Shown: piece by piece, positions 11,825 to 41,716 of the stretch
Position numbering within the stretch: position 1 is the first letter of the stretch
How the letters are laid out: each line of letters opens with the position of its first letter
Origin: Microtetraspora fusca
GTDB taxonomy: Bacteria > Actinomycetota > Actinomycetes > Streptosporangiales > Streptosporangiaceae
Direction: 5' to 3'
DNA: 62,594 nucleotides
NCBI RefSeq assembly: GCF_001570365.1
Contig: NZ_BBYK01000079.1
Coordinates: forward strand, 1 to 62,594
Translations under genes and position numbers: made by a program
Notes under the pieces: model-generated
Seen by the model: the letters and a program-made list of their open reading frames with translations, nothing else
Databases searched by the model: none
Told to the model about the DNA's origin: nothing

Positions 11825-13114
11825 GTGTTCGCTGACCGGCGTGACGCCGGAACCCGCCTGGGCGAGCGGCTTCGGGACCGACTCGGGGGCGCGGACGCGG
11901 TCGTGGTGGGGCTGCCCCGGGGCGGCGTCGTGGTGGCGTACGAGGTGGCCAGGGCGCTGGGCGCTCCGCTCGACGTGATCGTGGTGCGCAAGCTGGGCGT
12001 GCCGTACCAGCCGGAGCTCGGCTTCGGGGCGATCGGGGAGGGCGGCGTGCGCGTCCTGAACCCCGACATCGTACGGCTGGCCGGTGTCACGAAAGAGCAG
12101 ATGGCCAAGGTGGAGGAGGCCGAGCGCGAGGAGCTGATCCGCCGCGCGGCCCGGTTCCGAGGGGGCCGGCCGCGGGTCGAGCCGGCCGGGCGCACGGTGA
12201 TCGTGGTGGACGACGGCGTGGCCACGGGAGGGACGGCGCGCGCGGCGTGCCGGGTGGCCCGGGGCCAGGGAGCGGCACGGGTGGTGCTCGCGGTTCCGGT
12301 GGGCGCGCCCGACACGATCGACGCGCTGCGCGAGGACGCCGACGAGGTGGTGTGCCTGCAGACGCCGCGCGACCTGTACGCGATCGGGGCCTGGTACCAC
12401 GACTTCCCGCAGACGAGCGACGAGCAGGTGGTGGAGCTGCTGCACCGGGCCGTGCAGCCGGCCGGGTTCGACGGCGAGATCGGGGTGGACGCGGAGGGCG
12501 TCCCGCTCGCCGGCCGGCTGACCGTGCCGGAGGGGGCGCGCGGGATCGTCGTGTTCGTCCACGGCAGCGGCAGCAGCCGGCACAGCCCGCGCAACCGCTA
12601 CGTGGCGGCGGCGCTCAACCGGGAGGGCCTGGGCACACTGCTGTTCGACCTGCTCACCCCGGACGAGGAGATCGACCGGGCCAACGTGTTCGACATCCGC
12701 CTGCTGGCCGACCGGCTGGTGGCGGTGACCCGCTGGCTGCGGGGCCGGCCGGAGGCCGGGGGCCTTCCGCTCGGGTACTTCGGGGCGAGCACGGGCGCCG
12801 CCGCCGCGCTGTGGGCGGCGGCGGCGCCGGACGCGGACATCGCGGCGGTCGTGTCACGCGGCGGCCGGCCGGACCTCGCGGGGGAGCGGCTGTCGGCCGT
12901 GCCCGCGCCGACGCTCCTGATCGTCGGCGGGGACGACCACGTGGTGCTCGGCCTCAACCAGGCGGCCCAGCAGCGGCTCCGCTGCGAGAACCGGCTGCGG
13001 ATCGTGCCGGGCGCGACCCACCTGTTCGAGGAGCCGGGCGCGCTCGAGGCCGTGGCCGAGCTGGCCCGCGACTGGTTCGCCGAGCACTTCGCCGCGCCGG
13101 TCACGCGTGGCTGA
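11825..13114 (+). CDS. phosphoribosyltransferase fused to an alpha/beta-hydrolase
   Basis: 429 aa. Residues about 1-215 are a type I phosphoribosyltransferase domain. VVGLPRGGVVVA begins it, and the PRPP loop is VIVVDDGVATGGT. Residues about 225-429 are a dienelactone-hydrolase-like alpha/beta fold with VVFVHGSGSSRHSPRN, nucleophile region GYFGASTGAAAA, Asp in IVGGDDHVV and His in GATHLFEEP. The start is GTG at 11825 with GGAGG nine bases upstream. Such fusions are known in actinobacteria and elsewhere, but substrates are not established. The stop codon of the recQ remnant falls inside its ribosome-binding region. Confidence 0.85.
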   Translation: MFADRRDAGTRLGERLRDRLGGADAVVVGLPRGGVVVAYEVARALGAPLDVIVVRKLGVPYQPELGFGAIGEGGVRVLNPDIVRLAGVTKEQMAKVEEAEREELIRRAARFRGGRPRVEPAGRTVIVVDDGVATGGTARAACRVARGQGAARVVLAVPVGAPDTIDALREDADEVVCLQTPRDLYAIGAWYHDFPQTSDEQVVELLHRAVQPAGFDGEIGVDAEGVPLAGRLTVPEGARGIVVFVHGSGSSRHSPRNRYVAAALNREGLGTLLFDLLTPDEEIDRANVFDIRLLADRLVAVTRWLRGRPEAGGLPLGYFGASTGAAAALWAAAAPDADIAAVVSRGGRPDLAGERLSAVPAPTLLIVGGDDHVVLGLNQAAQQRLRCENRLRIVPGATHLFEEPGALEAVAELARDWFAEHFAAPVTRG

Positions 13115-13238: not shown

Positions 13239-14429
13239 TCAGGCGGCCACAGGGGCGCGCATCAGCTCGGCGCGGTAGCGCGCGACGGCGGACGGGAGGC
13301 CGATCAGCACGACGCCGACGAGTGCGCCGCCGTCGTGGTAGCCGACCACGACCTCGCCGTCGAGGTCGCCGTCGAGGACCCGGATGTCGTCCGCGCCGAG
13401 CGCCGGGGCGCCGAACGACTGGATCCGCAGGTCGTACTGGTCGCTCCAGAACGTGGGCAGCGGCGCGAACGGCGCCGGTTCGGGCGCGCCCAGCCCGAGG
13501 TCGGCGAGCAGGGTGACCGCGGCGCGCTTGGCCGTGTCGGTCGGGATGCTCCAGTGCTCGACCCGCCGCGCCACGTCGTCGTAGCGCGGGTTGGGGAAGC
13601 GGGCCACGTCGCCCACCGCGACCACGCCGGACCGCCCCTCGACGCGCAGCGCGTTGTCGCACAGCACGCCGTCGGACAGGTCGAGGCCGTTGCCGTCGAG
13701 CCACTCGGTGTTGGACGCCGAGCCGACCGCCTCCACGACGACGTCGGCGTCGAGCCGGGTGCCGTCGGACAGCTCGGCCCCGGCGACCCGGCCCTCGCCG
13801 AAGAAGGCCGCGACGGTACGGCCCAGCAGGAACCGGACGCCGCGCGCCTCGTGGCGGCGCTGGAGGGCGGCCCCGAGGTCGTCGCCGAGCGGGCGGCGCA
13901 TCGGCACCGCCTCCGGCGCGACCACGGTCACGTCGGCGCCGAGGATCCGCGCCGTCGCGGCGACCTCGCATCCGATGAACCCGGCCCCGATCACCAGCAC
14001 CCGGGCGCCGGGGCCCAGCTCGCCGCGCAGCGTGCGGGCGTCCTCGATGGTGCGCACCACGTGCCTGCCCCGGGCCGGGCCCGGAGTGGGCAGCCGCCGC
14101 GGCCGCATCCCGGTGGCGACCACCAGGCCGTCGTAGGCCAGCTCGGCGCCGTCGGCGAGCCGTACGGCTCCCGCGGCGAGATCGGCGGAGGCGATCGGGA
14201 CGCCGAGCCGCCAGGTCACGTCGGCGACGGCCGGGCGCAGCCGGAACGCGACCGCCTCGTGGGTCACCTCCGAGGCGAGGGCCTCCTTGGAGAGCGGCGG
14301 CCGGTTGTACGGCATGTGGATCTCGTCGCCCACGGCGACGATTTCTCCCATGAATCCGGAGGCGCGCAGCCGCTCGGCCGCGCGCAGGCCGCCCATCGAG
14401 GCGCCCGCGATCAGGATGCGCCGGCTCAT
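13239..14429 (-). CDS. FAD-dependent ferredoxin reductase
   Basis: 396 aa. The N-terminal FAD-binding motif is GASMGGLRAAERLR. A second NAD(P)-binding Rossmann motif is VLVIGAGFIGCEVAA, and the second FAD motif is GVVAVGDVARF. The order matches the pyridine-nucleotide-disulfide family that feeds P450 ferredoxins and ring dioxygenases. A single-cluster ferredoxin gene lies 5 bp upstream in the same operon. With that ferredoxin it should pass electrons from NAD(P)H to the P450 encoded at 23.3 kb, whose operon shares the same operator. The start is ATG at 14429. Confidence 0.92.
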   Translation of the reverse strand: MSRRILIAGASMGGLRAAERLRASGFMGEIVAVGDEIHMPYNRPPLSKEALASEVTHEAVAFRLRPAVADVTWRLGVPIASADLAAGAVRLADGAELAYDGLVVATGMRPRRLPTPGPARGRHVVRTIEDARTLRGELGPGARVLVIGAGFIGCEVAATARILGADVTVVAPEAVPMRRPLGDDLGAALQRRHEARGVRFLLGRTVAAFFGEGRVAGAELSDGTRLDADVVVEAVGSASNTEWLDGNGLDLSDGVLCDNALRVEGRSGVVAVGDVARFPNPRYDDVARRVEHWSIPTDTAKRAAVTLLADLGLGAPEPAPFAPLPTFWSDQYDLRIQSFGAPALGADDIRVLDGDLDGEVVVGYHDGGALVGVVLIGLPSAVARYRAELMRAPVAA

Positions 14430-14434
14430 CGCGC

Positions 14435-14623
14435 TCAGTCCTCGATCGTGATGGCCTGCAGCGGGCAGACGTCGGCGGCCTCCTCGACGGCGTCGCGCAG
14501 CGACTCGTCGGGCTCCGCCACGTAGACCAGCCGGCCGTTCTCGTTGATCTGGAAGACCTCGGGGGCGGAGAAGACGCACTGCCCGTGGTCCTTGCAGACG
14601 TCCATGTCGACGACGACCTTCAT
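14435..14623 (-). CDS. P450-type single-cluster ferredoxin
   Basis: 62 aa. The cluster motif reads C-x2-H-x2-C (Cys10, His13, Cys16) and ends with Cys53-Pro. The second usual Cys is replaced by His, as in actinobacterial ferredoxins that serve cytochromes P450 and carry a 3Fe-4S or unusual 4Fe-4S cluster. It lies 5 bp upstream of the ferredoxin reductase and 20 bp downstream of the FAH-family gene. It is the probable electron carrier to the P450 in this cluster. Confidence 0.93.
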   Translation of the reverse strand: MKVVVDMDVCKDHGQCVFSAPEVFQINENGRLVYVAEPDESLRDAVEEAADVCPLQAITIED

Positions 14624-14643
14624 GGTGGAACTCCTTGTGGTGA

Positions 14644-15489
14644 TTAACGCTTCGGGGGGCGGACGCCGCGGAACTCCCAGTCGCCGCCGAAGGCGGTGGA
14701 GATGACCTCCTCCGACTCGGTCGGCTGGGCGCCGCAGTCGTCACGGATGGGGGCGGGCCCCTGGACCACGTGGTTGCGCAGCGTGCCGAGGCCCTCGACC
14801 TCGACCTCGACCACGTCGCCCGGCTGGACCGGCCGCGAGTTGGCCGGAGTGCCCGACAGCAGCACGTCGCCCGGGTAGAGCGTGATCGTGCGGGCGATGT
14901 CGGCGACGAGATAGTGCATGTCCCACTCCATCTCGTCGGTGGAGCCGTCCTGGGCGACCTCGCCGTTGACGTACGTGCGCAGCCGCTTGCCGCGGAAGTC
15001 CCAGTCGGTGACGAGGCCGGGGCCGAGCGGGCAGAGCGTGTCGGAGCCCTTCACCCGCAGCATCGAACCGGCGTCGGTGTCGCGGAAGTCGTGCAGGCCG
15101 TAGTCGTTGCCCACCGTGTAGCCGGCGATGTAGTCCCCGGCCTCCTGCGGCGAGATGTTGCGTGCGGTGCGGCCGATCACGATGGCCACCTCGCCCTCGT
15201 AGTTGAGGTACTTGCACCGCTCGGGACGGACGATCGCGCCCTTGTGCCCGTTCAGCGCCGAGGTCGGCTTGTGGAAGTACGTCGGCGCCGGGGGCAGCGA
15301 GGTCATGAACTCCTCGACCCGGCTGCGGTGGTTCAGGTGGACGGCGATGATCTTGCTGGGCACGCTCGGCGGCAGGTGGACGGCGTCCTCGACGCCCACC
15401 ACGCGGCCGTCGGCGCTGACCAGCTCGGCACCCTCGCGGCGCACCTGGGTGGCGGCGCCGTCCAGGAGGATCCTGCGGTACTCGGGCAT
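14644..15489 (-). CDS. fumarylacetoacetate hydrolase-family enzyme (HpaG-like isomerase/decarboxylase)
   Basis: 281 aa. The FAH catalytic region is recognisable: YFHKPTSALNGH, then YEGEVAIVIGRTARNI with the metal-binding Glu residues, GYTVGNDYGLHDFR and GDVLLSGTP. It overlaps the extradiol dioxygenase gene by one base (TGATG), so the two are translationally coupled. In the homoprotocatechuate pathway a FAH-fold enzyme decarboxylates or isomerises 5-carboxymethyl-2-hydroxymuconate products, and I infer that role here. Substrate specificity cannot be read, and acylpyruvate hydrolase activity is an alternative. Confidence 0.88.
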   Translation of the reverse strand: MPEYRRILLDGAATQVRREGAELVSADGRVVGVEDAVHLPPSVPSKIIAVHLNHRSRVEEFMTSLPPAPTYFHKPTSALNGHKGAIVRPERCKYLNYEGEVAIVIGRTARNISPQEAGDYIAGYTVGNDYGLHDFRDTDAGSMLRVKGSDTLCPLGPGLVTDWDFRGKRLRTYVNGEVAQDGSTDEMEWDMHYLVADIARTITLYPGDVLLSGTPANSRPVQPGDVVEVEVEGLGTLRNHVVQGPAPIRDDCGAQPTESEEVISTAFGGDWEFRGVRPPKR

Positions 15490-16430
15490 CAACGGGTCCC
15501 TTCGAGGGTGAACGGGTAGGGGTACGGGTCGCCCGAGCTGTCGGTCGCCCGGGGCGCGGCGAAGCCGCCCTCCGGCCGGTCGAACCAGACGTGCACCTGG
15601 CCGGTCCCCGTGGCGTTCTCGTAGTCGCTGTACTGCCGGCCGGGCGCGGTGAAGTCGTGCTCGCCGAGCGCCCCGGCCATCATCAGGTAGTGGCCGAACC
15701 GCCCCTCGGGCTTGAAGCGGTAGAAGTCCTCCATCGTGTCGAGCACGCGGGGGTGGTCGCCGGCGAGCATCCACGCGATGCGCTCCTCGTCGGCGGCCCG
15801 CGCCTCGGGGGTGCGGACGTGCGACGGGTCGCTCGACTCGTGCGCGCGCACGTGGCGCAGCGGCCAGAACATGTGCGAGAGAGCGCCGGACGCGATCAGC
15901 AGCACCTTGCGGTCGCTCGCCGCGACGGCCTCGCCGACCGCGCGGCCGAGCCGCAGGTTGTCCTCGGTCTCGGCGGTCTGGCACATGCCGATCGAGATCC
16001 ACCGCTTGCCCTCGACGCCGAGGTACTTCCACAGGTTGACTGTGGCGTAGAAGATCGGCAGGTGGTGGTCGTCGATCGCGGTGATCCAGGTGGCGTGCCG
16101 GTCCTGGTACGACGCGATCAGACGGGCCAGCTCCGGGTCGCCGGGGAAGTCGTACGGGATCCGGCACATGCCGCGGGGCAGCTCCTCGGAGGTGAAGAGG
16201 CCGGAGCGGCGGTCCTGCGCGGTCACCACGAACTCGAACGTGGTCGCCCAGTGCGAGTCGAAGACGATCACGGTGTCGTAGTCGACCGCGTCGAAGACCT
16301 CTTCCCGCAGGCGGCGCAGCCCGGGGACGATGCTGATCTCCTTGCCCTCGTTGAGCTCCTTGCGGACCTCGAGGGGCAGCATGACCGTCGGGGCGTGGGC
16401 GAGGATGCCCGCGCCGACGATTTCACCCAT
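15489..16430 (-). CDS. hpaD: LigB-class extradiol dioxygenase, HpaD-like (3,4-dihydroxyphenylacetate 2,3-dioxygenase)
   Basis: 313 aa. It matches the E. coli HpaD pattern throughout. Metal His12 lies in GILAHAPTV and His60 in VIVFDSHWATT. GLFTSEELP, then ASGALSHMFWP, and YENATGTGQVHVWF near the C-terminus also fit. Class III extradiol enzymes use Fe(II) to open catechol rings next to the hydroxyls. The neighbouring aldehyde dehydrogenase and FAH-family genes are the next enzymes of the homoprotocatechuate pathway, which supports the substrate. A substituted or amide-linked catechol remains possible. Confidence 0.88.
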   Translation of the reverse strand: MGEIVGAGILAHAPTVMLPLEVRKELNEGKEISIVPGLRRLREEVFDAVDYDTVIVFDSHWATTFEFVVTAQDRRSGLFTSEELPRGMCRIPYDFPGDPELARLIASYQDRHATWITAIDDHHLPIFYATVNLWKYLGVEGKRWISIGMCQTAETEDNLRLGRAVGEAVAASDRKVLLIASGALSHMFWPLRHVRAHESSDPSHVRTPEARAADEERIAWMLAGDHPRVLDTMEDFYRFKPEGRFGHYLMMAGALGEHDFTAPGRQYSDYENATGTGQVHVWFDRPEGGFAAPRATDSSGDPYPYPFTLEGTR

Positions 16431-17877
16431 TCCAGCCTCCCGGCGCGGTGACGGTGTTCTTGACGTCGCAGTAGAAGTCGAAGCTCCAGTCGCCACCCTC
16501 GCGCCCGACGCCGGACTGCCGTGCGCCGCCGAACGGGGCCTGCAGGTCGCGGACGAAGAAGCAGTTGACCCAGACGGTGCCGGCGACCAGCCGCTCGGTG
16601 ACGCGGTCGGCCCGCTCGCGGGAGCCGGTCGCGAGGGTGGCGGCCAGGCCGAACTTCGTGGAGTTGGCCATCTCGACGGCCTCGTCCTCGGTGCGGAACG
16701 TCTGGAGCGTGAGGACCGGTCCGAAGACCTCCTCGTTGACGATCTCGCTGTCCGGGGCGACGCCGGTGAACAACGTGGGCCGGTAGTACAGGCCGCCGAG
16801 GTCGGTGTTGGGTCCGCCGCCGATGACGGGGGTGCCCCCGGCGGCGATGGCCCGCTGGACGAACCCGTCGATCCGCTCGAAGTGCTCGCGGTGGATGTTC
16901 GGGCCGATGTCGGTGGCGAGGTCGCGCGGATCGCCCTGGCGCAGCGCGCTCGCCTTGGCGACGAAGCGCTCGGTGAACTCGGCGGCGACGCTCTCCTCGA
17001 CCAGCAGCCGGGTCCCGGCCAGGCACACCTGCCCGGCGTTGTCGTACTGCTCGACCGCGAGGTTCACGGCGAGGTCGAGGTCGGCGTCGGCGAAGACGAT
17101 CAGCGGAGACTTGCCGCCGAGCTCCAGCGACAGCGGGGTCAGGTTGGCCGCCGCGGCGCGGGCGATGTGGCGGGCGGTGGGCACCGAGCCGGTGAAGCTG
17201 ATCCGGCGCACGTCGGGGTGGGCGACCAGCGGGGCGCCGACCTCCTCGCCGTACCCCTGGACGACGTTGAAGACGCCGTCGGGCAGCCCGGCCTCGACCG
17301 TGATCTCGGCGAGCAGCGACGCGGTGAGCGGGGACCACTCGGCCGGCTTGAGGACGACCGTGTCACCCGCGGCGAGCGCGGGGGCGATCTTCCAGGTGGC
17401 CAGCATGAGCGGCGCGTTCCACGGGGTGATCAGCGCGCAGACGCCAGCCGGATCCCACGAGACGTGGTTGCGGTGCCCGCGGGTCTCGAAGTCGTCGTGC
17501 CCGAGCCCGAGCAGCCAGTCGGCGAAGAAGCGGAAGTTGTGCGCCACCCGGGGCATCACGCCGCGCAGGTGCGACCGCAGCAGAGCGCCGTTGTCGGTCG
17601 TCTCCACGATCGCGAGCTGGTCCAGCCGCTTCTCGACTCCGTCGGCGATCGCGTGCAGCAGACGCGCCCGCTCCTCACGGCTCGTGCGGGCCCACGCGGG
17701 GAACGCCTTGGTCGCGGCCCGGACCGCCTCTTCGGCCTCCTTCGCGCCGCCGCGTGCGACGCGCGCGATCACCTGTCCGTCGATCGGCGAGACGTCGTCG
17801 AACGTCGCAGGTGAGGAGACCCGTGCGCCTCCAATCCAGTGGTCCTCCTGGATCGTGACATCCCCGACAGTGGCCAT
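16423..17877 (-). CDS. hpaE: aldehyde dehydrogenase, HpaE-like (carboxymethyl-hydroxymuconate semialdehyde dehydrogenase)
   Basis: 484 aa from the ATG at 17877, which has GGAGGAG in place. A longer start at 17904 would overlap the operator and is less likely. Motifs are ITPWNAPLMLATWKIAP, KPAEWSPLTA, the Gly-rich SFTGSVPTARH, catalytic Glu in SLELGGKSP, catalytic Cys in NAGQVCLAGTRL and EEVFGPVLT. It overlaps the dioxygenase gene by 8 bp as first gene of the operon. It should oxidise the semialdehyde made by ring cleavage. A gamma-glutamyl-aldehyde substrate is an alternative. Confidence 0.9.
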   Translation of the reverse strand: MATVGDVTIQEDHWIGGARVSSPATFDDVSPIDGQVIARVARGGAKEAEEAVRAATKAFPAWARTSREERARLLHAIADGVEKRLDQLAIVETTDNGALLRSHLRGVMPRVAHNFRFFADWLLGLGHDDFETRGHRNHVSWDPAGVCALITPWNAPLMLATWKIAPALAAGDTVVLKPAEWSPLTASLLAEITVEAGLPDGVFNVVQGYGEEVGAPLVAHPDVRRISFTGSVPTARHIARAAAANLTPLSLELGGKSPLIVFADADLDLAVNLAVEQYDNAGQVCLAGTRLLVEESVAAEFTERFVAKASALRQGDPRDLATDIGPNIHREHFERIDGFVQRAIAAGGTPVIGGGPNTDLGGLYYRPTLFTGVAPDSEIVNEEVFGPVLTLQTFRTEDEAVEMANSTKFGLAATLATGSRERADRVTERLVAGTVWVNCFFVRDLQAPFGGARQSGVGREGGDWSFDFYCDVKNTVTAPGGWNG

Positions 17878-17890
17878 CCGCTCCTCCAGC

Positions 17891-17910
17891 TCGTTTGGTC
17901 CCAAACAACT
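17891..17910. promoter_or_regulatory. operator copy 1 (TTTG-N4-CAAA), aldehyde dehydrogenase side
   Basis: Reads TCGTTTGGTCCCAAACAACT, with palindromic core GTTTG-N4-CAAAC. It starts 14 bp upstream of the aldehyde dehydrogenase start. A second copy with 17 of 20 bases identical lies 56 bp away (17947-17966), about 14 bp before the divergent hydrolase gene. A MarR-type dimer is the likely ligand, since a marR gene lies 0.7 kb away and such regulators bind short inverted repeats. Confidence 0.75.
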
Positions 17911-17946
17911 TAGGTCTCGCTCTCCCGGCCAGTCAATATGCCGCTA

Positions 17947-17966
17947 TCGTTTGGAGTCAAACAACT
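17947..17966. promoter_or_regulatory. operator copy 2 (TTTG-N4-CAAA), hydrolase side
   Basis: Reads TCGTTTGGAGTCAAACAACT and differs from copy 1 only in the three central bases. It ends 14 bp before the ATG of the divergent PuuD-like gene. The two near-identical sites at both ends of the 103-bp divergent promoter suggest simultaneous control of both transcripts. Confidence 0.75.
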
Positions 17967-17980
17967 GCAAGGAGGCTGGG

Positions 17981-18679
17981 ATGCCCGACCGCCGGCCGAT
18001 CATCGCGATTCCCTCGCGGTTCGCCGCCACAACGTCCGCGCTCCGCTACTCGGCGGTGGTCACCGCCCGGGCGCTCGCCGACGCCGTCCACCGCGCGGGC
18101 GGCGAGCCCTTCCTCATGCACCCCGTGGGTGCGGACGAGGCCGCCGAGCGGCTCGCCGTCGCGGACGGCCTGCTGCTCCCCGGCGGGGGCGACCTCTCTC
18201 CGTCCGTGTACGGCGAGGACGCGGCGCACGAGAGCGTCTACGACGTGGACGCCGAGCAGGACGCCTTCGACCTCGCGGCGGCCCGGCACGCGCTGTCCAC
18301 CGGGATGCCGACCCTGGCCGTCTGCCGGGGCCTGCAGGTCGTCAACGTCGTCCTCGGCGGGCGGCTGGTCCAGCACATGGAGCCCGACCACCGCCACGTC
18401 GTCCACCCGGTGCGCGTACGGCCTGGCTCGCTGCTGGCCGAGGTGACCGGGGTGGAGAAGATCGAGGCGTCCTGCTACCACCACCAGTGCGCGTCGTCGC
18501 TGGGGGAGGGGCTGGAGGCCGTCGCGCACGCCGAGGACGGCACGATCGAGGCCGCCGAGCCGGCCGCGCGTAGGGGATGGTTCCTCGCCGTCCAGTGGCA
18601 CCCCGAGGACACCGCGGCGACCGACCCGGTCAACCAGCGGATCTTCGACGGCCTGGTCGCGGCGGCCCGCTCAGCCTGA
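17981..18679 (+). CDS. class I glutamine amidotransferase-fold gamma-glutamyl hydrolase, PuuD-like
   Basis: 232 aa of the peptidase C26 family. The nucleophile Cys115 lies in LAVCRGLQVVN. The triad His and Glu are in AVQWHPED near residue 206. LLLPGGGDLSPSVYG is the oxyanion-side loop. Family members cleave gamma-glutamyl amides such as gamma-glutamyl-GABA, and relatives act on gamma-glutamylanilide. The ATG follows GGAGG by 5 bases. It is divergent from the HpaE-like operon and shares its operators. A glutamine-synthetase-like gene of the same regulon could make the gamma-glutamyl substrate. Confidence 0.9.
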   Translation: MPDRRPIIAIPSRFAATTSALRYSAVVTARALADAVHRAGGEPFLMHPVGADEAAERLAVADGLLLPGGGDLSPSVYGEDAAHESVYDVDAEQDAFDLAAARHALSTGMPTLAVCRGLQVVNVVLGGRLVQHMEPDHRHVVHPVRVRPGSLLAEVTGVEKIEASCYHHQCASSLGEGLEAVAHAEDGTIEAAEPAARRGWFLAVQWHPEDTAATDPVNQRIFDGLVAAARSA

Positions 18680-19243
18680 CCGGCGGCGTCCCCCGCGGCG
18701 CGGCGGCGCGGGGGACTCCCGGCGCAGGTTCTCCCTGCGCTCCTCGCCGTGCTCCTCCAGGTGCGTGACGATCCGCCGCAGCGTGTCGGCGAGGTGCAGG
18801 GACTCCTCGGCGTCGAGCGCGCCGACCACGAACGACTCCTCGTCGTTGAACGCGGGGAACAGCTTCTCCATCAGCGCGAGCCCCTCGGGGGTGAGCCGCA
18901 GCAGCGCCAGCCGGCCGTCGTCGGGGTGCTGGCGGCGCTCGGCCAGGCCGCGCGACTCCAGGGTCTTGATGATGCCGGTGAGCGTGCCCTTGGAGATGCC
19001 CGCCTCGGCCGCGGCGTACCGCGTCTCGATCTCCTCCCAGATCCACACGACCCACAGCACGACGAACGCGCTCCAGGTGAGGTCGGCCGACCGGAGCGCC
19101 GAGTTCTCCAGGTGCTGGCGGACCGCGGCGGCCGCGCGATACAGGTTGGAGACCGCGGCGAGCGCCTCCCTGCGGACCGGGATCGGCCCCAACCTGCGCT
19201 TCACCGCCTCCTCGGTTTCGGAGAGCGAGTAGTGCGCGGGCAC
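18671..19243 (-). CDS. MarR-family transcriptional regulator
   Basis: 190 aa from a GTG at 19243. AAAGGAG lies five bases before this GTG, whereas an ATG at 19258 would put that motif inside the gene. The winged helix covers about residues 45-120 (DLTWSAFVVLWVVWIWEE, then GISKGTLTGIIKTLESRGL and the wing RRQHPDDGRLALLRLTPEG). A basic Pro/Arg-rich tail ends the protein. HpaR, a MarR protein, represses homoprotocatechuate genes in E. coli, which suits this context. It overlaps the PuuD-like gene end by 9 bp. It is the best candidate for the TTTG-N4-CAAA operator. Confidence 0.9.
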   Translation of the reverse strand: MPAHYSLSETEEAVKRRLGPIPVRREALAAVSNLYRAAAAVRQHLENSALRSADLTWSAFVVLWVVWIWEEIETRYAAAEAGISKGTLTGIIKTLESRGLAERRQHPDDGRLALLRLTPEGLALMEKLFPAFNDEESFVVGALDAEESLHLADTLRRIVTHLEEHGEERRENLRRESPAPPRRGGRRRSG

Positions 19244-19275
19244 CCCGACTCCTTTCATGTCAACTCTTGCGCGGG

Positions 19276-19330
19276 GTTCATTTGTACACGTACGATCCGC
19301 CAAACGGCAGGTCGTACGCACTCAAACGAT
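19276..19330. promoter_or_regulatory. divergent marR/permease control region with operator-like sequences
   Basis: GTTCATTTG at 19276-19284 followed by TACGAT at 19291-19296 matches the half-site and spacing found upstream of the decarboxylase-fold gene (21787-21807). CAAACG occurs at 19302-19307 and CAAACGA at 19323-19329, matching the other half of the regulon motif. No full palindrome is present, so I read these as weaker sites for autoregulation and permease control. Confidence 0.45.
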
Positions 19331-19419
19331 CTCATGAATTCCAGTGGTCAGGCCGGTGAGCGGGCGGATCGCTGACGAAACATCCCGCTCATCCACCCCT
19401 TTTTATATGGAAGGTTGCC

Positions 19420-20895
19420 ATGGCCGATGAGGCAATCGCCACCGGACGGCTTTCAGCCGGTGAACAGTCCGCCACGCACGCCCTCTCCCGACGTCGGATC
19501 GGCGTACCCGACATCGTCTTCTTCGTCGTGGCGGCCTCGTCTCCGCTGACCGTCGCGGCCGGCGGCCTTCCGATGAGCTACGGCACCACCGGGGTGACCG
19601 GGGTCCCGCTCATCTACCTCATCCTCGCGGCCGTGCTCGCCGTCTTCTCCGCCGGGTACGCCGCGATGAGCCGGCACATCTCCAACGCGGGCGCGTTCTA
19701 CTCCTACATCGCGCAGGGGCTCGGCCGGGTGACCGGCGTCGGCGCCTCGTTCGTCGCCCTCCTCGCGTACAACGCCATGCAGGTCGGGCTGTACGGCCTG
19801 TTCGGCGCGGCCGCCTCGGGGCTGGTCTCCGCGCACCTGGGTGTGGACGTGCCCTGGTGGGTGTGCTCGCTGGTCGCCCTCGCGCTGATCGCGTTCCTCG
19901 GCTACCGCAGGATCGACCTGAACGCCCGCGTGCTCGCCGTCCTGCTGGTCTGCGAGGGGCTCACCGTCCTGGTCTTCGACATCGCCCAGATCGGGAACGC
20001 CCCCTCGGGCCTGAGCGCGGAGCCGTTCACCTGGAGCGCCGTCACCACCGGTGCGGTCGGCGCCGGGTTCTGCTGGGTGATGGCCTCGTTCATGGGCTTC
20101 GAGTCCGGCGCGATCTACAGCGAGGAGTGCCGCGACCCGCGCCGCACCGTCAGCCGCGCCACCTACATCGCCGTCGCCCTGATCGGCGTCTTCTACGCCT
20201 TCACCGCGTGGGCGATGTCCATGGGCACCGGCGTCGACAAGATCATCGACGAGTCCGCGAAGAACGGCACCGACCTGGTCTTCATCCTCGGCGAGGCGAC
20301 CATCGGCTCGGCGTTCTCCACGCTCGCCAACGTCTTCATGGTCACCGCCGTGTTCGCCGCCCTGCTGTCCTTCCACAACGCGGTGGCGCGGTACTTCTTC
20401 GCGCTCGGCCGCGAGGGCGTCCTGCCCGCCCGGCTCGGCGACTCCCACCGCAGGCACGGCTCCCCGTACGTCGGCTCGCTCGCCCAGACGGTCATCGCGC
20501 TCGTGGTCGTCGTCGGCTTCGGCGTCCTCGGCGGCAGCCCCACCGACACGCTCTTCAACTGGTTCACCAACCTCGGCGCGCTCGGCGTGATCCTGCTGCT
20601 CGTGGTCACCTCGGTGTCGGTGATCGGGTTCTTCCGCCGCGACTCGCGCGGCGAGAACGGCTTCAGCCGCGTCCTCGCCCCCGCGCTGGCCGGTGCGGCC
20701 CTGGCGGCCATCCTCGTGCTCGCCGTCATCAACTTCAACGCCCTGCTAGGCACCCCGCCGGACTCGATCCTCAACTGGCTGATCCCCGGCCTCGTCCTGC
20801 TCGCCGGGATCATCGGCGTCGGCTACGGCCTGCGGATCAAGGCCGCCGACCCCGAGACGTACGCCCGGATCGGCCACGGCGCTCCCGGGGAGTAG
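19420..20895 (+). CDS. APC-superfamily amino acid/amine permease
   Basis: 491 aa with about 12 hydrophobic segments. The first helix motif SSPLTVAAGG and the AGAFYSYIAQGLGRVTG stretch are typical of APC permeases. GFESGAIYSEECRDPRRTV is the conserved cytoplasmic loop. GGAAGG stands seven bases before the ATG. Such permeases import amino acids, polyamines or aromatic amines by cation symport. Placement inside the gamma-glutamyl/ring-cleavage cluster suggests it imports the pathway substrate. A 14-bp terminator hairpin follows. Confidence 0.92.
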   Translation: MADEAIATGRLSAGEQSATHALSRRRIGVPDIVFFVVAASSPLTVAAGGLPMSYGTTGVTGVPLIYLILAAVLAVFSAGYAAMSRHISNAGAFYSYIAQGLGRVTGVGASFVALLAYNAMQVGLYGLFGAAASGLVSAHLGVDVPWWVCSLVALALIAFLGYRRIDLNARVLAVLLVCEGLTVLVFDIAQIGNAPSGLSAEPFTWSAVTTGAVGAGFCWVMASFMGFESGAIYSEECRDPRRTVSRATYIAVALIGVFYAFTAWAMSMGTGVDKIIDESAKNGTDLVFILGEATIGSAFSTLANVFMVTAVFAALLSFHNAVARYFFALGREGVLPARLGDSHRRHGSPYVGSLAQTVIALVVVVGFGVLGGSPTDTLFNWFTNLGALGVILLLVVTSVSVIGFFRRDSRGENGFSRVLAPALAGAALAAILVLAVINFNALLGTPPDSILNWLIPGLVLLAGIIGVGYGLRIKAADPETYARIGHGAPGE

Positions 20896-20911
20896 CCGTC
20901 CGGGCAGCGAA

Positions 20912-20942
20912 AAGGAGGGCCGGGGTGACCCCGGCCCTCCTT
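20912..20942. terminator. bidirectional terminator hairpin
   Basis: A perfect 14-bp stem (AAGGAGGGCCGGGG and its complement at 929-942) around a TGA loop sits in the 58-bp gap between the convergent permease and decarboxylase-fold genes. It can serve both, although the T-tract is short. Confidence 0.85.
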
Positions 20943-20953
20943 GACGGTTCGAC

Positions 20954-21763
20954 CTACTCCGCGCCGGACGCGCCCGACTCCAGCAGCGTGCCGCCGTTCC
21001 AGACGACCCCGACCTGGCGGTAGTAGCCGCCGATCATCTCGTCCACCGTGAGGTCGGCGAGCTCCTCGGTCGGCGCGTCGAACAGCTCGATCTCCGCGTC
21101 GCCGGTCCACGCCTGGCCGCCCTCGAAGCTCTCGGCGCCGGTGACGATCAGCTCGTCCAGAGCCAGTCCCTTCCCCGGCTCGATCGACTGGAGCCAGCGG
21201 TTGTGCGCCATCGGGTGGCCGTTGACGAAGCCGTTGGTCTCGCTGGGCTCGCGGAGCCGTACGACGGCCTGGGCCAGCCGCCGGTCGGCGGCGGCGAGCG
21301 TGGCGCCGAAGACGCCCCCCTCGCCGATCCGCGGCGCGGCCTGCCCGAACGGGTGCGGACGGGTCATATGGATGGAGCCCAGCTTCTTCGGGTAGCCCTG
21401 GTGGACGCCCCGGGCGATGGCGAAGTCCTTGTCCACCCAGATGTAGACGCACCGCGAGTAGGTCCGCCCCTTGTAGGAGCAGCGCACCACGACGAAGCAC
21501 TCCTTGTACTGCGACCGCACCGGGTCCAGCAGCTCCTCACGGCCTCCGGAGCACGACTGCCAGTCGGCCCAGATCACCGCCACCGCGCCCGGGTCCTCCT
21601 CGGCGAGCGAGAGCGGCTCGGGGAGCAGCGCGGCAACCTTGGCGGGGTCGGTCCGGTATTCCACGGTCAGCAGGTCGCCCGAGTAGTACCAGGGCGGGCT
21701 CGGAACCAGCGAGGACCGGCCGGTCACCGTCTTGGGCGTGTAGAAACCGCGCAGCTTGGCCAC
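20954..21763 (-). CDS. acetoacetate decarboxylase-fold enzyme
   Basis: 269 aa from GTG at 21763, chosen because AAGGAGG lies just before it. An upstream ATG at 21802 would overlap an operator. Family features are SLVPSPPWYYSGDLLTVEYR, YKECFVVVRCSYKG and VHQGYPKKLGSIHMTR, where the PKK stretch aligns with the Schiff-base lysine region. The superfamily includes decarboxylases and aldolase-dehydratases, so it could do a late step (decarboxylation, hydration or aldol cleavage) for which no other gene is seen here. The true reaction is unknown. Confidence 0.82.
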   Translation of the reverse strand: MAKLRGFYTPKTVTGRSSLVPSPPWYYSGDLLTVEYRTDPAKVAALLPEPLSLAEEDPGAVAVIWADWQSCSGGREELLDPVRSQYKECFVVVRCSYKGRTYSRCVYIWVDKDFAIARGVHQGYPKKLGSIHMTRPHPFGQAAPRIGEGGVFGATLAAADRRLAQAVVRLREPSETNGFVNGHPMAHNRWLQSIEPGKGLALDELIVTGAESFEGGQAWTGDAEIELFDAPTEELADLTVDEMIGGYYRQVGVVWNGGTLLESGASGAE

Positions 21764-21786
21764 GGCGCCTCCTTGGTGGTGGAGTA

Positions 21787-21807
21787 GTTCATTTGGATCC
21801 ATACGAT
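21787..21807. promoter_or_regulatory. operator-like site upstream of the decarboxylase-fold gene
   Basis: Begins GTTCATTTGGATCC and ends ATACGAT. The first 11 bases are identical to the minus-strand reading of the site at 21887-21909 in the glutamine-synthetase-like promoter, and the sequence also resembles 19276-19296. It lies 24 bp upstream of the GTG start. One half-site is good and the other is degenerate. Confidence 0.55.
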
Positions 21808-21864
21808 ATGGCCTGAGCTGCGCATTGTCATCAGCCGCCTCCGGATATCGTCAAAAACGGACTC

Positions 21865-21909
21865 TTGTTGTCCCCCCAATTGCGGCGTATTGTTTGCGTC
21901 CAAATGAAC
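21865..21909 (+). promoter_or_regulatory. promoter with overlapping TTTG-N4-CAAA operator, glutamine-synthetase-like gene
   Basis: TTGTTG (21865-21870), a 17-bp spacer and TATTGT (21888-21893) look like a sigma-70-type promoter. The operator (TTTGCGTCCAAA, 21893-21904, inside a longer match at 21887-21909) overlaps the -10 element, so binding would block transcription. The core matches the two sites at 17.9 kb. Confidence 0.65.
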
Positions 21910-21941
21910 CCCCCATGTGCTGTCACTATCGAGGAGGCCAC

Positions 21942-23279
21942 GTGAGCACGGAGTCCGCGGAACGGGCCGTTCAGCGCCTGCAGGACCAGGGCGTCGACGT
22001 CGTCCGTATCGGCTATCCCGACCTCATCGGCACCGACCGCGGCAAGGACGTGCTCGTCGAACGGCTCCCCGAGGTGTGCGAGAGCGGCGTCGCCTTCTGC
22101 CGCGCCGTCTACTACACCTCGCCGCAGGCCGACGTCGTCCCCGTGCCCGGCGGGCTCGACGAGGGCCTCCCCGACATCTCGATCCGTCCCGACCTGTCCA
22201 CGCTCGTCCCGCTCGCCTGGGAGCCCGGAGTCGCCTACTGTCTCGGCGACGCGGTCAACCCCGCCACAGGAGAGCCCTTCCCGGAGTCGCCGCGCGAGGT
22301 CGTCCGCGCCGCCGCCGCCCGGCTCGCCGAGCTCGGACTGACCGGTGTCGTCGGCCCCGAGCTGGAGTACTTCCTGATGGAGCCCGACGGCGCGGGCTGG
22401 AAGCGCTACGACGACGCCCCCGGCAACGTCTACGTCGTCGGCGCCAAGGGCGACCGCGGCTCCCACGTGCTGCGCACCCTGCGCACGCTGCGCGGGATGG
22501 AACTCGGCGTCACCATGGGCAACCACGAGTTCTCCGGCGGCCAGTTCGAGATCAACCTCCACCACTCCGAGGCCGTCGACGCCGCCGACCGGGCCTTCCG
22601 CTTCAAATCCGCCATCAAGGAGCTGGCCCGCCGCGACGGCATGATGGCCACCTTCATGGCCAAGCCGTTCAACGACGAGGGCGGCTCCGGCTTCCACGTC
22701 CACATCTCCTGCACGGACGAGAGCGGCCGCAACATCTTCGACGACCCCTCCGGGGCGTACGGGCTCTCGGACCGGGCCCGGCACGCCATCGGCGGCATCC
22801 TCGCGCACGCGCCCGCGCTCGCCGCCCTGCTCAACCCCACGATCAACTCGTACAAGCGGTTCGGGCCGGACACGCTCGCCCCCTGGCTGATCGACTGGGG
22901 CCTCGACAACCGCAGCGCCATGCTGCGCGTCCCGCCGGAGCGCGGCGCCGGCGCCCGCCTGGAGGTCCGGCTCGGCGACGCCTCCGCCAACCCCTACCTC
23001 GGCATCGCGGGCCTGCTCGCCGCCGTCTACCTCGGCATCCGCGACCGCGTGGAGCCGCCCGCCCCGCTCTCCGGCTACGGCTACGACACCAGTAAGGCCC
23101 CCGTGCTGCCGATGTCGCTGCCCGTCGCACTGGACGCCCTCAGCGCCGACACCGCCTTCAACGAGGTCCTCGGCAAAGAGTTCACCACCGCCTACCTCGC
23201 CTACAAGCGGAACGAGGTCGAGCGCTTCTCCCAGTTCATCACCGACTGGGAGTTCCGCGAGTACGCCTACCACCTCTAG
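21942..23279 (+). CDS. glutamine-synthetase-like gamma-glutamyl ligase (PuuA/GlnA3-4 type)
   Basis: 445 aa from a GTG preceded by GAGGAGG. It keeps the glutamine synthetase catalytic blocks: GPELEYFLMEP, NHEFSGGQFEINL, MAKPFNDEGGSGFHVHIS, NSYKRFGPDTLAP and the Arg region NRSAMLRVPPERG. It lacks the C-terminal adenylylation region of housekeeping GlnA. Relatives gamma-glutamylate putrescine (PuuA), ethanolamine (Streptomyces GlnA4), isopropylamine or aniline. A P450 gene follows by 36 bp in the same operon, and a matching gamma-glutamyl hydrolase is in the regulon. I infer ATP-dependent activation of an aromatic or other amine. Confidence 0.9.
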   Translation: MSTESAERAVQRLQDQGVDVVRIGYPDLIGTDRGKDVLVERLPEVCESGVAFCRAVYYTSPQADVVPVPGGLDEGLPDISIRPDLSTLVPLAWEPGVAYCLGDAVNPATGEPFPESPREVVRAAAARLAELGLTGVVGPELEYFLMEPDGAGWKRYDDAPGNVYVVGAKGDRGSHVLRTLRTLRGMELGVTMGNHEFSGGQFEINLHHSEAVDAADRAFRFKSAIKELARRDGMMATFMAKPFNDEGGSGFHVHISCTDESGRNIFDDPSGAYGLSDRARHAIGGILAHAPALAALLNPTINSYKRFGPDTLAPWLIDWGLDNRSAMLRVPPERGAGARLEVRLGDASANPYLGIAGLLAAVYLGIRDRVEPPAPLSGYGYDTSKAPVLPMSLPVALDALSADTAFNEVLGKEFTTAYLAYKRNEVERFSQFITDWEFREYAYHL

Positions 23280-23315
23280 CCATCCGTAGTTCCTGAAACC
23301 CCTTCTGGAGGATCA

Positions 23316-24563
23316 ATGCGCCTGGAAGACGTCGACCTGGCGGACAACGACAAGTTCCTCGACGGCGACACCCCGTGGCGCATGTTCGACGTGCTCCGCG
23401 AACAGGCCCCGGTGCACTGGCAGGACGAGGGCGACCACGGCAGCGGCTTCTGGTCGGTCACCCGTCACGCCGACATCGTCCGCGTCGACCGCGACCCGGC
23501 CACCTTCACCTCCATGAAGTTCACCAACCTGGAGGAGGTCGACGACCGGCAGGCCACCATCCGGCGCTCCATCCTGGAGACCGACGGCCCCCGGCACAGC
23601 GTGCTCCGCCGCATCCTGCAGCGCGAGTTCACCCCCAGGGCCGTCGCCGGCTACGAGGTCTTCCTGCGCGGGCTCACCGCCCGCACCCTGGACGCCGCGC
23701 TTGCCAAGGGCACGTTCGACTTCGTGAAGGAGGTCGCCGCCGACTTCCCGATCAACGTCCTGGCCAAGATGCTCGACGTGCCCGCCGACGACACCCAGCA
23801 GCTCATCGACTGGGGCAACCGCATCATCGGCAACACCGACCCCGACTACGCCGACGTCCTCCTGCACAGCGAGGAGAGCGAGAAGTACCGCGACCTGCCC
23901 TTCCGCAGCCCCGCCTCCATCGAGGTCTTCGAGTACGGCCGCGAGCTGGCCAGGCAGCGCCGCGGCGGCGACGGCACCGACCTCGTCAGCAAGCTGGTCA
24001 ACGAGACCCCCGCCGACGGCGTGCCGCTCTCGCCGACCGACTTCGACAACTACTTCCTGCTGCTCGTGGTCGCCGGCAACGAGACCACCCGGCACGCCAT
24101 CTCCCACACCATGCGCGCCCTGATCGACCACCCCGAGCAGGCGGAGAAGCTCCGGCAGGACCTCTCCCTCATGCCGAACGCGGTGGAGGAGTTCCTGCGC
24201 TGGGCCTCCCCGGTCTACCACTTCCGCCGTACGGCGACCCAGGACGTCGAGATGCACGGGCAGAAGATCGCCGAAGGCGACAAGGTCGTCATGTGGTTCG
24301 CCTCCGGCAACCGGGACGAGCGGGTCTTCGATTCCCCCTACACCTTCGACGTGACCCGGCAGAACAACGACCACATCACCTTCGGCAAGGGCAGCCCGCA
24401 CTTCTGCCTGGGCAACGCCCTCGCCCGCCTGGAGATCCGGATCATGTTCGAGGAGCTGCTGCCGCGCATCGCCGACATCAAGCTCGCCGGCGACATCCGC
24501 CGGGTCCGCTCCAACTTCGTCAACGGCATCAAGGAGCTCCCGGTCACCGTCACACTCGCCTGA
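23316..24563 (+). CDS. cytochrome P450 monooxygenase
   Basis: 415 aa and soluble. The I-helix oxygen-activation motif is VVAGNETTR (254-259 for GNETTR), the ExxR is EFLR (292-295), and the heme loop is FGKGSPHFCLGNALAR with ligand Cys364. CTGGAGG precedes the ATG. It is the second gene after the glutamine-synthetase-like ligase. A ferredoxin and a ferredoxin reductase are encoded in the operon under the same operator. The I-helix sequence recalls actinobacterial CYP125/142-type enzymes, but the context suggests an aromatic or gamma-glutamylated substrate. Likely chemistry is ring hydroxylation or O-demethylation. Confidence 0.93.
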   Translation: MRLEDVDLADNDKFLDGDTPWRMFDVLREQAPVHWQDEGDHGSGFWSVTRHADIVRVDRDPATFTSMKFTNLEEVDDRQATIRRSILETDGPRHSVLRRILQREFTPRAVAGYEVFLRGLTARTLDAALAKGTFDFVKEVAADFPINVLAKMLDVPADDTQQLIDWGNRIIGNTDPDYADVLLHSEESEKYRDLPFRSPASIEVFEYGRELARQRRGGDGTDLVSKLVNETPADGVPLSPTDFDNYFLLLVVAGNETTRHAISHTMRALIDHPEQAEKLRQDLSLMPNAVEEFLRWASPVYHFRRTATQDVEMHGQKIAEGDKVVMWFASGNRDERVFDSPYTFDVTRQNNDHITFGKGSPHFCLGNALARLEIRIMFEELLPRIADIKLAGDIRRVRSNFVNGIKELPVTVTLA

Positions 24564-41655: not shown

Positions 41656-41716
41656 CCTTTTGCTCCCTTTGCGTGGTATATCGGGGGGAGCACTCCGACC
41701 CCCCAGGAGAAACCGT

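Follow-up and report, generated by a model that had tools for sequence, protein, structure and literature searches.

Why would a single actinobacterial gene cluster combine a glutamine-synthetase-like ligase, a cytochrome P450, and enzymes resembling those that open the ring of 3,4-dihydroxyphenylacetate (DHPA)? The question is raised by eleven genes at positions 13239 to 24563 of a 62,594-nucleotide (nt) stretch of Microtetraspora fusca DNA (contig NZ_BBYK01000079.1, assembly GCF_001570365.1), the whole of which is referred to here as the window. We consider it near certain that these genes form one set under common control, and likely that they serve amine catabolism with a glutamate cap kept on through ring opening. 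On balance, the cluster is probably a regulon for the breakdown of an arylethylamine, namely tyramine and/or dopamine, capped in this way. We lean narrowly toward an undescribed route, present in several phyla, that would take the capped amine to gamma-aminobutyrate (GABA) and pyruvate, with an acetoacetate decarboxylase (ADC)-fold enzyme replacing a hydratase and an aldolase.

Gene set and operator

All eleven genes were verified by translation and homology, and every gene named in an initial annotation, made from the sequence alone, is present where it had been placed (Pfam and NCBIfam matches, translation). A codon-bias gene pick recovered 8 of the 11; the ferredoxin, fumarylacetoacetate hydrolase (FAH) family, and PuuD-like genes were added via translation and homology. 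The genes and operator sites are as follows (aa, amino acids).

13239-14429, minus strand: ferredoxin reductase (Pyr_redox_2 and Reductase_C), 396 aa (Pfam 191.2 bits on a longer open frame)
14435-14623, minus strand: small ferredoxin, 62 aa, CxxxxxC...CP pattern (six-frame translation)
14644-15489, minus strand: FAH-family enzyme, HpaG-like (TIGR02303 205.1 bits, cut-off 276.4)
15489-16430, minus strand: HpaD-like LigB-fold extradiol dioxygenase, 313 aa (LigB 75 bits; HpaD_Fe 125.7 bits)
16423-17877, minus strand: HpaE-like semialdehyde dehydrogenase (Aldedh 534 bits; HpaE 526.2 bits)
17893-17906: operator palindrome GTTTGGTCCCAAAC, between the HpaE-like and PuuD-like genes, conserved in relatives
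17949-17962: operator palindrome GTTTGGAGTCAAAC, between the HpaE-like and PuuD-like genes
17981-18679, plus strand: PuuD-like class I amidotransferase-fold hydrolase, 232 aa (PDB matches 3fij, 6vtv)
18671-19321, minus strand: MarR-family regulator (MarR 43.4 bits; HpaR 41.3 bits, cut-off 121.2)
19420-20895, plus strand: APC-family amino acid/amine permease, putative importer (AA_permease 111.5 bits)
20954-21802, minus strand: ADC-fold enzyme, MppR-like (ADC 203 bits)
21892-21905: operator palindrome GTTTGCGTCCAAAT, between the ADC-fold and ligase genes
21942-23279, plus strand: glutamine-synthetase-like ligase (Gln-synt_C 330.9 bits)
23316-24563, plus strand: cytochrome P450, CYP125/124 group (p450 82.7 bits)

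The five minus-strand genes from the HpaE-like dehydrogenase to the ferredoxin reductase are near-contiguous, with gaps of 5, 20, -1, and -8 nt (two overlaps), and the P450 gene starts 36 nt after the ligase gene. The small ferredoxin, presumably of the 3Fe-4S type, adjoins the reductase gene in many relatives. The nearest named relatives among the matches are Microtetraspora species, in which the dioxygenase is 96% identical.

The dioxygenase or a relative of it is found in 114 loci, which comprise 80 GTDB contigs (the best 80 of 110 from one scan), 4 plasmids, 29 genome stretches, and the window; individual loci are cited by L numbers, and species may overlap between the sets. The fourth plasmid locus, L093, is a distant relative (dioxygenase 40% identical). 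The 29 stretches were taken from the 30 dioxygenase-positive genomes among 394 drawn evenly from the class (∼8%, including the window's genome), representing 13 of 138 genera, and the best 80 GTDB loci span Actinomycetota, Acidobacteriota, and Alpha- and Gammaproteobacteria, among others. HpaE-like dehydrogenases are encoded in 97 loci, FAH enzymes in 90, ligases and ADC-fold proteins in 87 each, P450s in 73, MarR regulators in 70, PuuD-like hydrolases in 54, and ferredoxin reductases in 49; because contig ends truncate many loci, these counts are lower bounds. Gene order and strand differ widely between loci while the same families recur, and this recurrence in rearranged order excludes a chance grouping. 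The comparison across actinomycetes proposed in the initial annotation thus finds the set recurring, reshuffled, both there and in other phyla. For residue comparisons, rows with internal stops or below 75% of full length were dropped, leaving 86 ADC, 51 PuuD, 101 HpaD, 90 FAH, 72 P450, and 86 glutamine-synthetase-like rows.

Comparison also establishes a shared operator, the palindrome RTTTG-N4-CAAAY, whose window copies read GTTTG-N4-CAAAC/T. Four matches with at most one mismatch occur in the window against 0.41 expected, and in the 9.02-Mb genome the exact palindrome occurs at 4 places, 3 of them in the cluster promoters, with none for a control pattern; the sole copy outside the cluster is at G000 contig C41:189093-189106. 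The 114 loci total 2.03 Mb, and 40 of them carry the palindrome, at 79 sites altogether. Of these sites, 68 precede a cassette gene by no more than 500 nt, 5 fall within HpaE-like genes, and 6 are elsewhere; as controls, the reversed pattern gave no site, swapped half-sites gave 4, and other spacers (lengths 0 to 9) gave 0 to 9. The sites precede ligase, P450, dioxygenase, HpaE-like dehydrogenase, ADC, PuuD, and PuuC-type genes. Because the palindrome lies both in the cluster promoters and upstream of equivalent genes in relatives, the genes constitute one regulon, as had been proposed, and activation, ring cleavage, and release are co-controlled, at least where sites occur (40 loci). Ring cleavage belongs to the same system as the ligase, a further point on which the gene set and the shared operator agree with the initial annotation. 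The MarR protein presumably binds the palindrome as a repressor, and the palindrome search found no full operator between the MarR and permease genes in the window. In L090 (plasmid pSLUN1), an M14 zinc carboxypeptidase gene (892-2265) has an operator just upstream at 2345 and is a possible further member of the regulon.

Ligase, P450, and the candidate amine

We infer the catalytic steps, their order, and the substrate as follows. The permease would import the amine, or in some relatives a decarboxylase would form it from tyrosine or 3,4-dihydroxyphenylalanine (DOPA), and the ligase would couple it to the gamma-carboxyl of glutamate using ATP. The P450, with the ferredoxin and reductase, would hydroxylate the ring to give gamma-glutamyl-dopamine, which the HpaD-like dioxygenase would open next to the side chain; the semialdehyde would be oxidized by the HpaE-like dehydrogenase, and the product isomerized and decarboxylated by the FAH enzyme. 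Acting alone as hydratase and aldolase, the ADC-fold enzyme would then yield pyruvate and gamma-glutamyl-4-aminobutanal. A PuuC/PatD-type dehydrogenase (in 23 of the 114 neighborhoods, and elsewhere in the window's genome) would convert the latter to gamma-glutamyl-GABA, from which the PuuD-like hydrolase would free glutamate and GABA, with GABA passing to succinate. The cap would block cyclization of the free amine onto the ring-cleavage aldehyde and 4-aminobutanal.

The ATP-, glutamate-, and metal-site residues that were checked are retained in 86/86 cassette ligases, and the ammonia-site positions GlnA D51 and Y180 are replaced, the tyrosine by valine in 84 of the 86, as in Escherichia coli PuuA; the roles of these residues are those we take them to have. 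The ammonia-site replacements rule out a glutamine synthetase and, being PuuA-like, support the initial reading of the protein as a putative gamma-glutamyl-amine ligase. The window ligase scores below the cut-off for gamma-glutamylputrescine synthetase (261.6 against 650 bits), and in a tree of 39 of the 86 rows the cassette ligases fall into two supported clades (21 and 18 rows) that are separate from GlnA and from PuuA, the latter a long branch. We suggest that the ligase is a gamma-glutamyl-arylethylamine synthetase. For the P450, the nearest solved chain is CYP125MRCA (8vxi, 406 bits), with CYP124 also near.

Genes for pyridoxal-phosphate-dependent decarboxylases point to the amine itself and are present in 21 of the 114 loci. 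The L143 decarboxylase is closest to plant tyrosine/DOPA decarboxylase (6liu, 387.6 bits), and those of L018 and L090 are closest to chain 5hsi, which we take to be a Lactobacillus tyrosine decarboxylase, with a best aligned stretch of only ∼100 residues; in L018, the genes for the decarboxylase and the ligase share 13 nt. That some cassettes encode tyrosine/DOPA-type decarboxylases supports the tyramine- or dopamine-like substrate suggested in the initial annotation, and either amine is plausible. Four loci with an L018-type decarboxylase (L018, L029, L090, and a fragment in L011) have no P450; elsewhere in the L011, L018, and L029 genomes, P450 relatives reach at most 46% identity. P450 loss might be linked to decarboxylase gain, as expected if dopamine derived from DOPA needs no hydroxylation. 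This is at most a hint, however, weakened because 8 of the 11 P450-less loci longer than 15 kb are without a decarboxylase and 14 of the 21 decarboxylase loci have a P450.

Ring cleavage and release of the cap

The three ring-cleavage enzymes resemble Hpa proteins without reaching their curated cut-offs: the dioxygenase scores 125.7 against 315.95 bits on the HpaD model (TIGR02298), the HpaE-like protein 526.2 against 638.35 bits (TIGR02299), and the FAH enzyme 205.1 against 276.4 bits on the HpaG-type isomerase/decarboxylase model. A true HpaD (347.9 bits, above the cut-off) is encoded on another contig of the window's genome, and a true HpaD/DHPA pathway is rejected for the cluster on these two grounds. 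Dioxygenase residues H12, H60, E242, and H186 are conserved and are shared with two annotated HpaD proteins, from which other invariant positions differ. The AlphaFold model (pLDDT 92.6) is closest in fold to DHPA dioxygenase 8iq8 (TM 0.81/0.89, 22% identity), followed by 2-aminophenol and DOPA extradiol dioxygenases. In a dehydrogenase tree that included 24 selected HpaE rows from cassettes together with that of the window (pieces below 900 nt omitted, stops written as X), these rows and the HpaE of L093 form one starred clade (100), and the FAH enzyme is very strongly conserved among 90 sequences. The dioxygenase would accordingly be a candidate for cleaving the ring of a glutamyl-capped catecholamine, and the FAH enzyme a predicted isomerase/decarboxylase of the oxidized cleavage product.

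The ADC-fold enzyme had been named in the initial annotation, correctly, and given no role there. Its closest solved chains are 6eej/4zbo and MppR (4jm3), and its best NCBIfam match is also MppR, below the equivalog cut-off (176.5 against 380 bits). K139 and Q135, which we take to be the Schiff-base lysine and its neighboring glutamine, align with K156 and Q152 of 4jm3 (counted along the alignment) and are present in 86/86 sequences. We found neither HpaH nor HpaI in the part of the window that was searched, and the pair is present in 4 of the 114 loci, all without ADC. Comparison of the 87 loci with both HpaE and FAH shows the two solutions to be exclusive: ADC alone is present in 74 and the HpaH/HpaI pair alone in 4, no locus combines them, and 9 lack both (Fisher p 3e-4, relatedness not corrected). 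ADC-family (PF06314) genes are absent from the three gammaproteobacterial genomes with HpaH and HpaI, which are metagenome-assembled and of untold completeness; the fourth such record, a Sphingobium plasmid, has two ADC-family genes elsewhere. A sample of 369 gammaproteobacterial genomes yielded only one that was already known, which leaves 4 loci as the basis for the HpaH/HpaI exchange. Given this mutual exclusivity, the ADC-fold protein reads as a single-protein replacement, a putative hydratase-aldolase. The Sphingobium plasmid cluster (L093, 9567-18410) encodes the 40% HpaD-like protein, HpaE, FAH, HpaH, and HpaI, with no ligase or P450, and may be another branch of the dioxygenase.

In the hpa route, a 4-substituted catechol undergoes 2,3-cleavage, oxidation, decarboxylation, hydration, and aldol cleavage, and the products are pyruvate and an aldehyde that combines the side chain with two ring carbons. 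A carboxymethyl side chain yields succinic semialdehyde, and a 2-aminoethyl side chain would by the same chemistry yield 4-aminobutanal, which when glutamylated is the substrate of PuuC. This matches the PuuC, PatD, GabD, and GABA transaminase (GABA-T) genes seen among the relatives. Second aldehyde dehydrogenases were taken as 22 rows longer than 900 nt from an 84-locus set; 9 fall with E. coli PuuC (98, starred), 4 with PatD (99, starred), and 3 with GabD (99, starred), and the others comprise a separate clade of 3 Nitriliruptor rows and 3 long, unplaced rows; FeaB stands beside the PatD group (86, unstarred). The L006 enzyme exceeds the aminobutyraldehyde dehydrogenase cut-off (639.5 against 615 bits). 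In 14 loci, PuuD has a PuuC-type gene as its same-strand neighbor. GABA-T-like genes are present in 9 of the 114 loci and directly follow the dioxygenase gene in 5, where the proteins are only 36 to 39% identical to PuuE/GabT. The L031 transaminase exceeds the curated GABA-T cut-off (562.5 against 506.65 bits), and L139 has adjacent genes for a GABA-T-like protein and one resembling succinic semialdehyde dehydrogenase (SSADH), on the same stretch several genes away. The PuuD-like protein is closest to chain 3fij, with PuuD 6vtv further down; C115, H207, and E209, presumably the Cys-His-Glu catalytic triad of PuuD, are conserved in at least 95% of 51 sequences, and the protein is predicted to be a gamma-glutamyl-GABA hydrolase.

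Relatives of PuuB and TynA, the only amine oxidase families searched for, are found in 0/114 loci, which rejects amine oxidase entry of either type, and FeaB is nowhere the best match in these loci. PuuC beside PuuD, the GABA genes, and the lack of PuuB and TynA together fit release at the end of the route, as gamma-glutamyl-GABA. The initial annotation had instead placed release of glutamate before ring cleavage; these observations, with a dioxygenase far below the HpaD cut-off, argue against that order.

Several observations weigh against the capped route or parts of it. The union of the two cassette-ligase clades is unsupported (14), so that the same substrate for all cassette ligases is not assured. 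Solved CYP125/124 members act mainly on aliphatic chains, which makes hydroxylation of the capped amine's ring by the P450 a guess. The decarboxylase genes occur in a minority of loci, and their assignments are uneven: the L054 enzyme is nearest serine/histidine decarboxylases, L157 gives mixed matches, and 7 of 10 decarboxylases scored best on a diaminobutyrate decarboxylase model, all far below its cut-off. Endpoint genes are likewise in the minority (PuuC/PatD type in 23 of the 114 loci, GABA-T in 9, SSADH in 6), and the window cluster has no PuuC/PatD gene. The genome does encode an aminobutyraldehyde dehydrogenase on contig C45 (PRK13473, 688.7 bits, above the cut-off), which is at most a candidate for this step. 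Sequence is a poor guide to aldehyde dehydrogenase specificity, and the PuuC-type proteins also match phenylacetaldehyde dehydrogenase models well. Finally, the operator is present in only 40 of the 114 loci, and some residues that separate the dioxygenase from true HpaD are also found in the ligase-less L093.

Alternatives, known systems, and neighboring genes

In one alternative, which follows the order of the initial annotation, the glutamylated amine is oxidized by the P450, then released or deaminated to a DHPA-type acid that enters hpa-type ring cleavage. In its favor are the resemblance of three proteins to HpaD, HpaE, and HpaG and the LigB fold of the dioxygenase, for which 8iq8 is the nearest match; the PuuC-like enzymes also match phenylacetaldehyde dehydrogenase models (L008 scores 522.8 bits on StyD and 578.6 on PuuC), and the class III transaminases could be amine transaminases. 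Glutamylation would be of little use, however, if the amine were first oxidized off, and the 114 loci have no PuuB or TynA relative and no FeaB best match; moreover, PuuC lies beside PuuD in 14 loci, a GABA-T-like gene directly follows the dioxygenase gene in 5, and the dioxygenase is far from HpaD in a genome with a true HpaD elsewhere. We regard this order of events as unlikely. It is similarly doubtful that the capped substrate is 3-methoxytyramine, an N-methylated (hordenine-like) amine, phenethylamine, or a sulfated amine, with the P450 as a demethylase or double hydroxylase. GcvT-like folate demethylases in L035, L091, and L150, second P450s in L091 and L150, and sulfatases in nine neighborhoods fit such substrates, and these add-ons suggest that substrates may differ among lineages, but the window has no GcvT-like, second-P450, or sulfatase add-on.

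A biosynthetic or detoxifying cluster, in which an MppR-like ADC protein and the P450 make a specialized metabolite with the ring-cleavage genes as tailoring enzymes, would account for the NCBIfam result for the ADC protein, which scores highest on MppR (176.5 bits, cut-off 380), and for the neighbors of the pSLUN1 cassette, among them an aromatase/cyclase, a condensation-domain gene, and SARP regulators. No assembly enzymes are present within the cluster, though, catabolic add-ons are, the same set extends from Actinomycetota to Gammaproteobacteria, and ADC is exchanged with the catabolic HpaH/HpaI, all of which make this explanation very improbable. We therefore retain catabolism of a capped tyramine or dopamine through ring opening as the preferred reading.

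Known microbial routes for tyramine and dopamine either remove the amine first, by an amine oxidase and then through hydroxyphenylacetate, or dehydroxylate the catechol; we know of no described capped route from these amines that ends in GABA. The hpa/hpc systems resemble the cluster in having a MarR-family regulator and in the enzyme families, and their order, with which the ring is cleaved, the semialdehyde oxidized, and the product decarboxylated by an FAH-type enzyme. The cluster differs in that its HpaD-, HpaE-, and HpaG-like proteins are all under the curated cut-offs, one ADC-fold protein stands for the HpaH/HpaI pair in most cassettes, a ligase, P450, and PuuD-like hydrolase are added, and the predicted side-chain product is GABA rather than succinic semialdehyde. 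With E. coli Puu it shares the ammonia-site loss of PuuA, a PuuD-like hydrolase, the same predicted final intermediates, and, in some relatives, a PuuC-type dehydrogenase and GABA transaminase; in contrast, no PuuB oxidase was found, an aromatic ring is the predicted source of the aldehyde, and the cassette ligase did not group with PuuA (a long branch) in the tree. The pip cluster for piperidine and morpholine also combines a P450, a ferredoxin, and a glutamine-synthetase-like protein, with a CYP151-type P450 and no ring-cleavage genes.

Glutamyl caps have been described in the catabolism of putrescine, ethanolamine, isopropylamine, anilines, and 1-naphthylamine (PMC11335346, PMC6529630). In the aniline and 1-naphthylamine routes (AtdA/TdnQ/NpaA1), a glutamine-synthetase-like enzyme gamma-glutamylates the amine before ring oxidation, an amidotransferase-like hydrolase is encoded in the cluster, and a Rieske dioxygenase yields nitrogen-free catechol or dihydroxynaphthalene from the glutamylated amine before ring cleavage (PMC11335346). 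Capping of an aromatic amine by a glutamine-synthetase-like enzyme and a clustered amidotransferase-like hydrolase gene are thus common to both, whereas in our cluster the cap is predicted to outlast ring cleavage and a P450 takes the place of the Rieske dioxygenase. No Rieske family was detected among 20 window proteins scanned with Pfam at 0.001, and an aniline-type Rieske system was rejected on this ground. Streptomyces ethanolamine utilization with GlnA4 involves permease, aldehyde dehydrogenase, and amidotransferase genes and a cap predicted to be kept to the last step (PMC6529630); it is alike in its actinobacterial glutamine-synthetase-like ligase and late-kept cap and differs in being non-aromatic with no oxygenase. 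For the Saccharolobus phenol meta-pathway, ADC-related proteins, compared with MppR, have been suggested to act at the terminal aldolase step (PMC7820114). That system has a phenol substrate and no ligase, and the suggestion there came from induction, sequence, and modeling, whereas ours comes from HpaH/HpaI replacement. A report on the Streptomyces catechol response (PMC9814775) has no bearing on the cluster.

Among the matches listed from open-licence literature, no published pathway joins the ligase, P450, HpaD-like cleavage, and GABA release, in keeping with the novelty that the initial annotation had claimed; the cluster is new as a pathway, assembled from known families. If the route holds, it would provide a function for a gene set whose dioxygenase occurs in ∼8% of sampled class genomes, extend the ADC fold to a catabolic hydratase-aldolase role, link neurotransmitter-type amines to GABA, and be a source of enzymes for amine-tolerant ring cleavage.

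Comparison of the neighborhoods also reveals recurrent classes of add-on genes. Sulfatases are encoded in nine, mostly gammaproteobacterial, neighborhoods (L034, L035, L048, L050, L052, L058, L059, L061, and L062), several of which also have tripartite tricarboxylate transporter genes; the substrates there are perhaps sulfated aromatic amines. GcvT-like folate demethylases (L091 23920-24924, L150 7744-8865, and L035 704-1840), accompanied in L091 by purU and folD, perhaps indicate methylated substrates. Their closest chains are trimethylamine N-oxide demethylase, then aminomethyltransferases and sarcosine oxidase, which rejects a LigM-type O-demethylase. F420-dependent LLM-class oxidoreductases are near the cassette in 24 of the 114 loci (e.g., L091 16311-17234). 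In the window, a phosphoribosyltransferase domain-alpha/beta hydrolase fusion (11825-13114) adjoins the cluster and is kept in Microtetraspora loci L001, L002, L003, and L005. Further along, a MecA_N penicillin-binding protein gene (41660-43378) precedes the gene for a lysine 6-transaminase (43512-44792) that is above its curated cut-off (642.9 against 520.8 bits).

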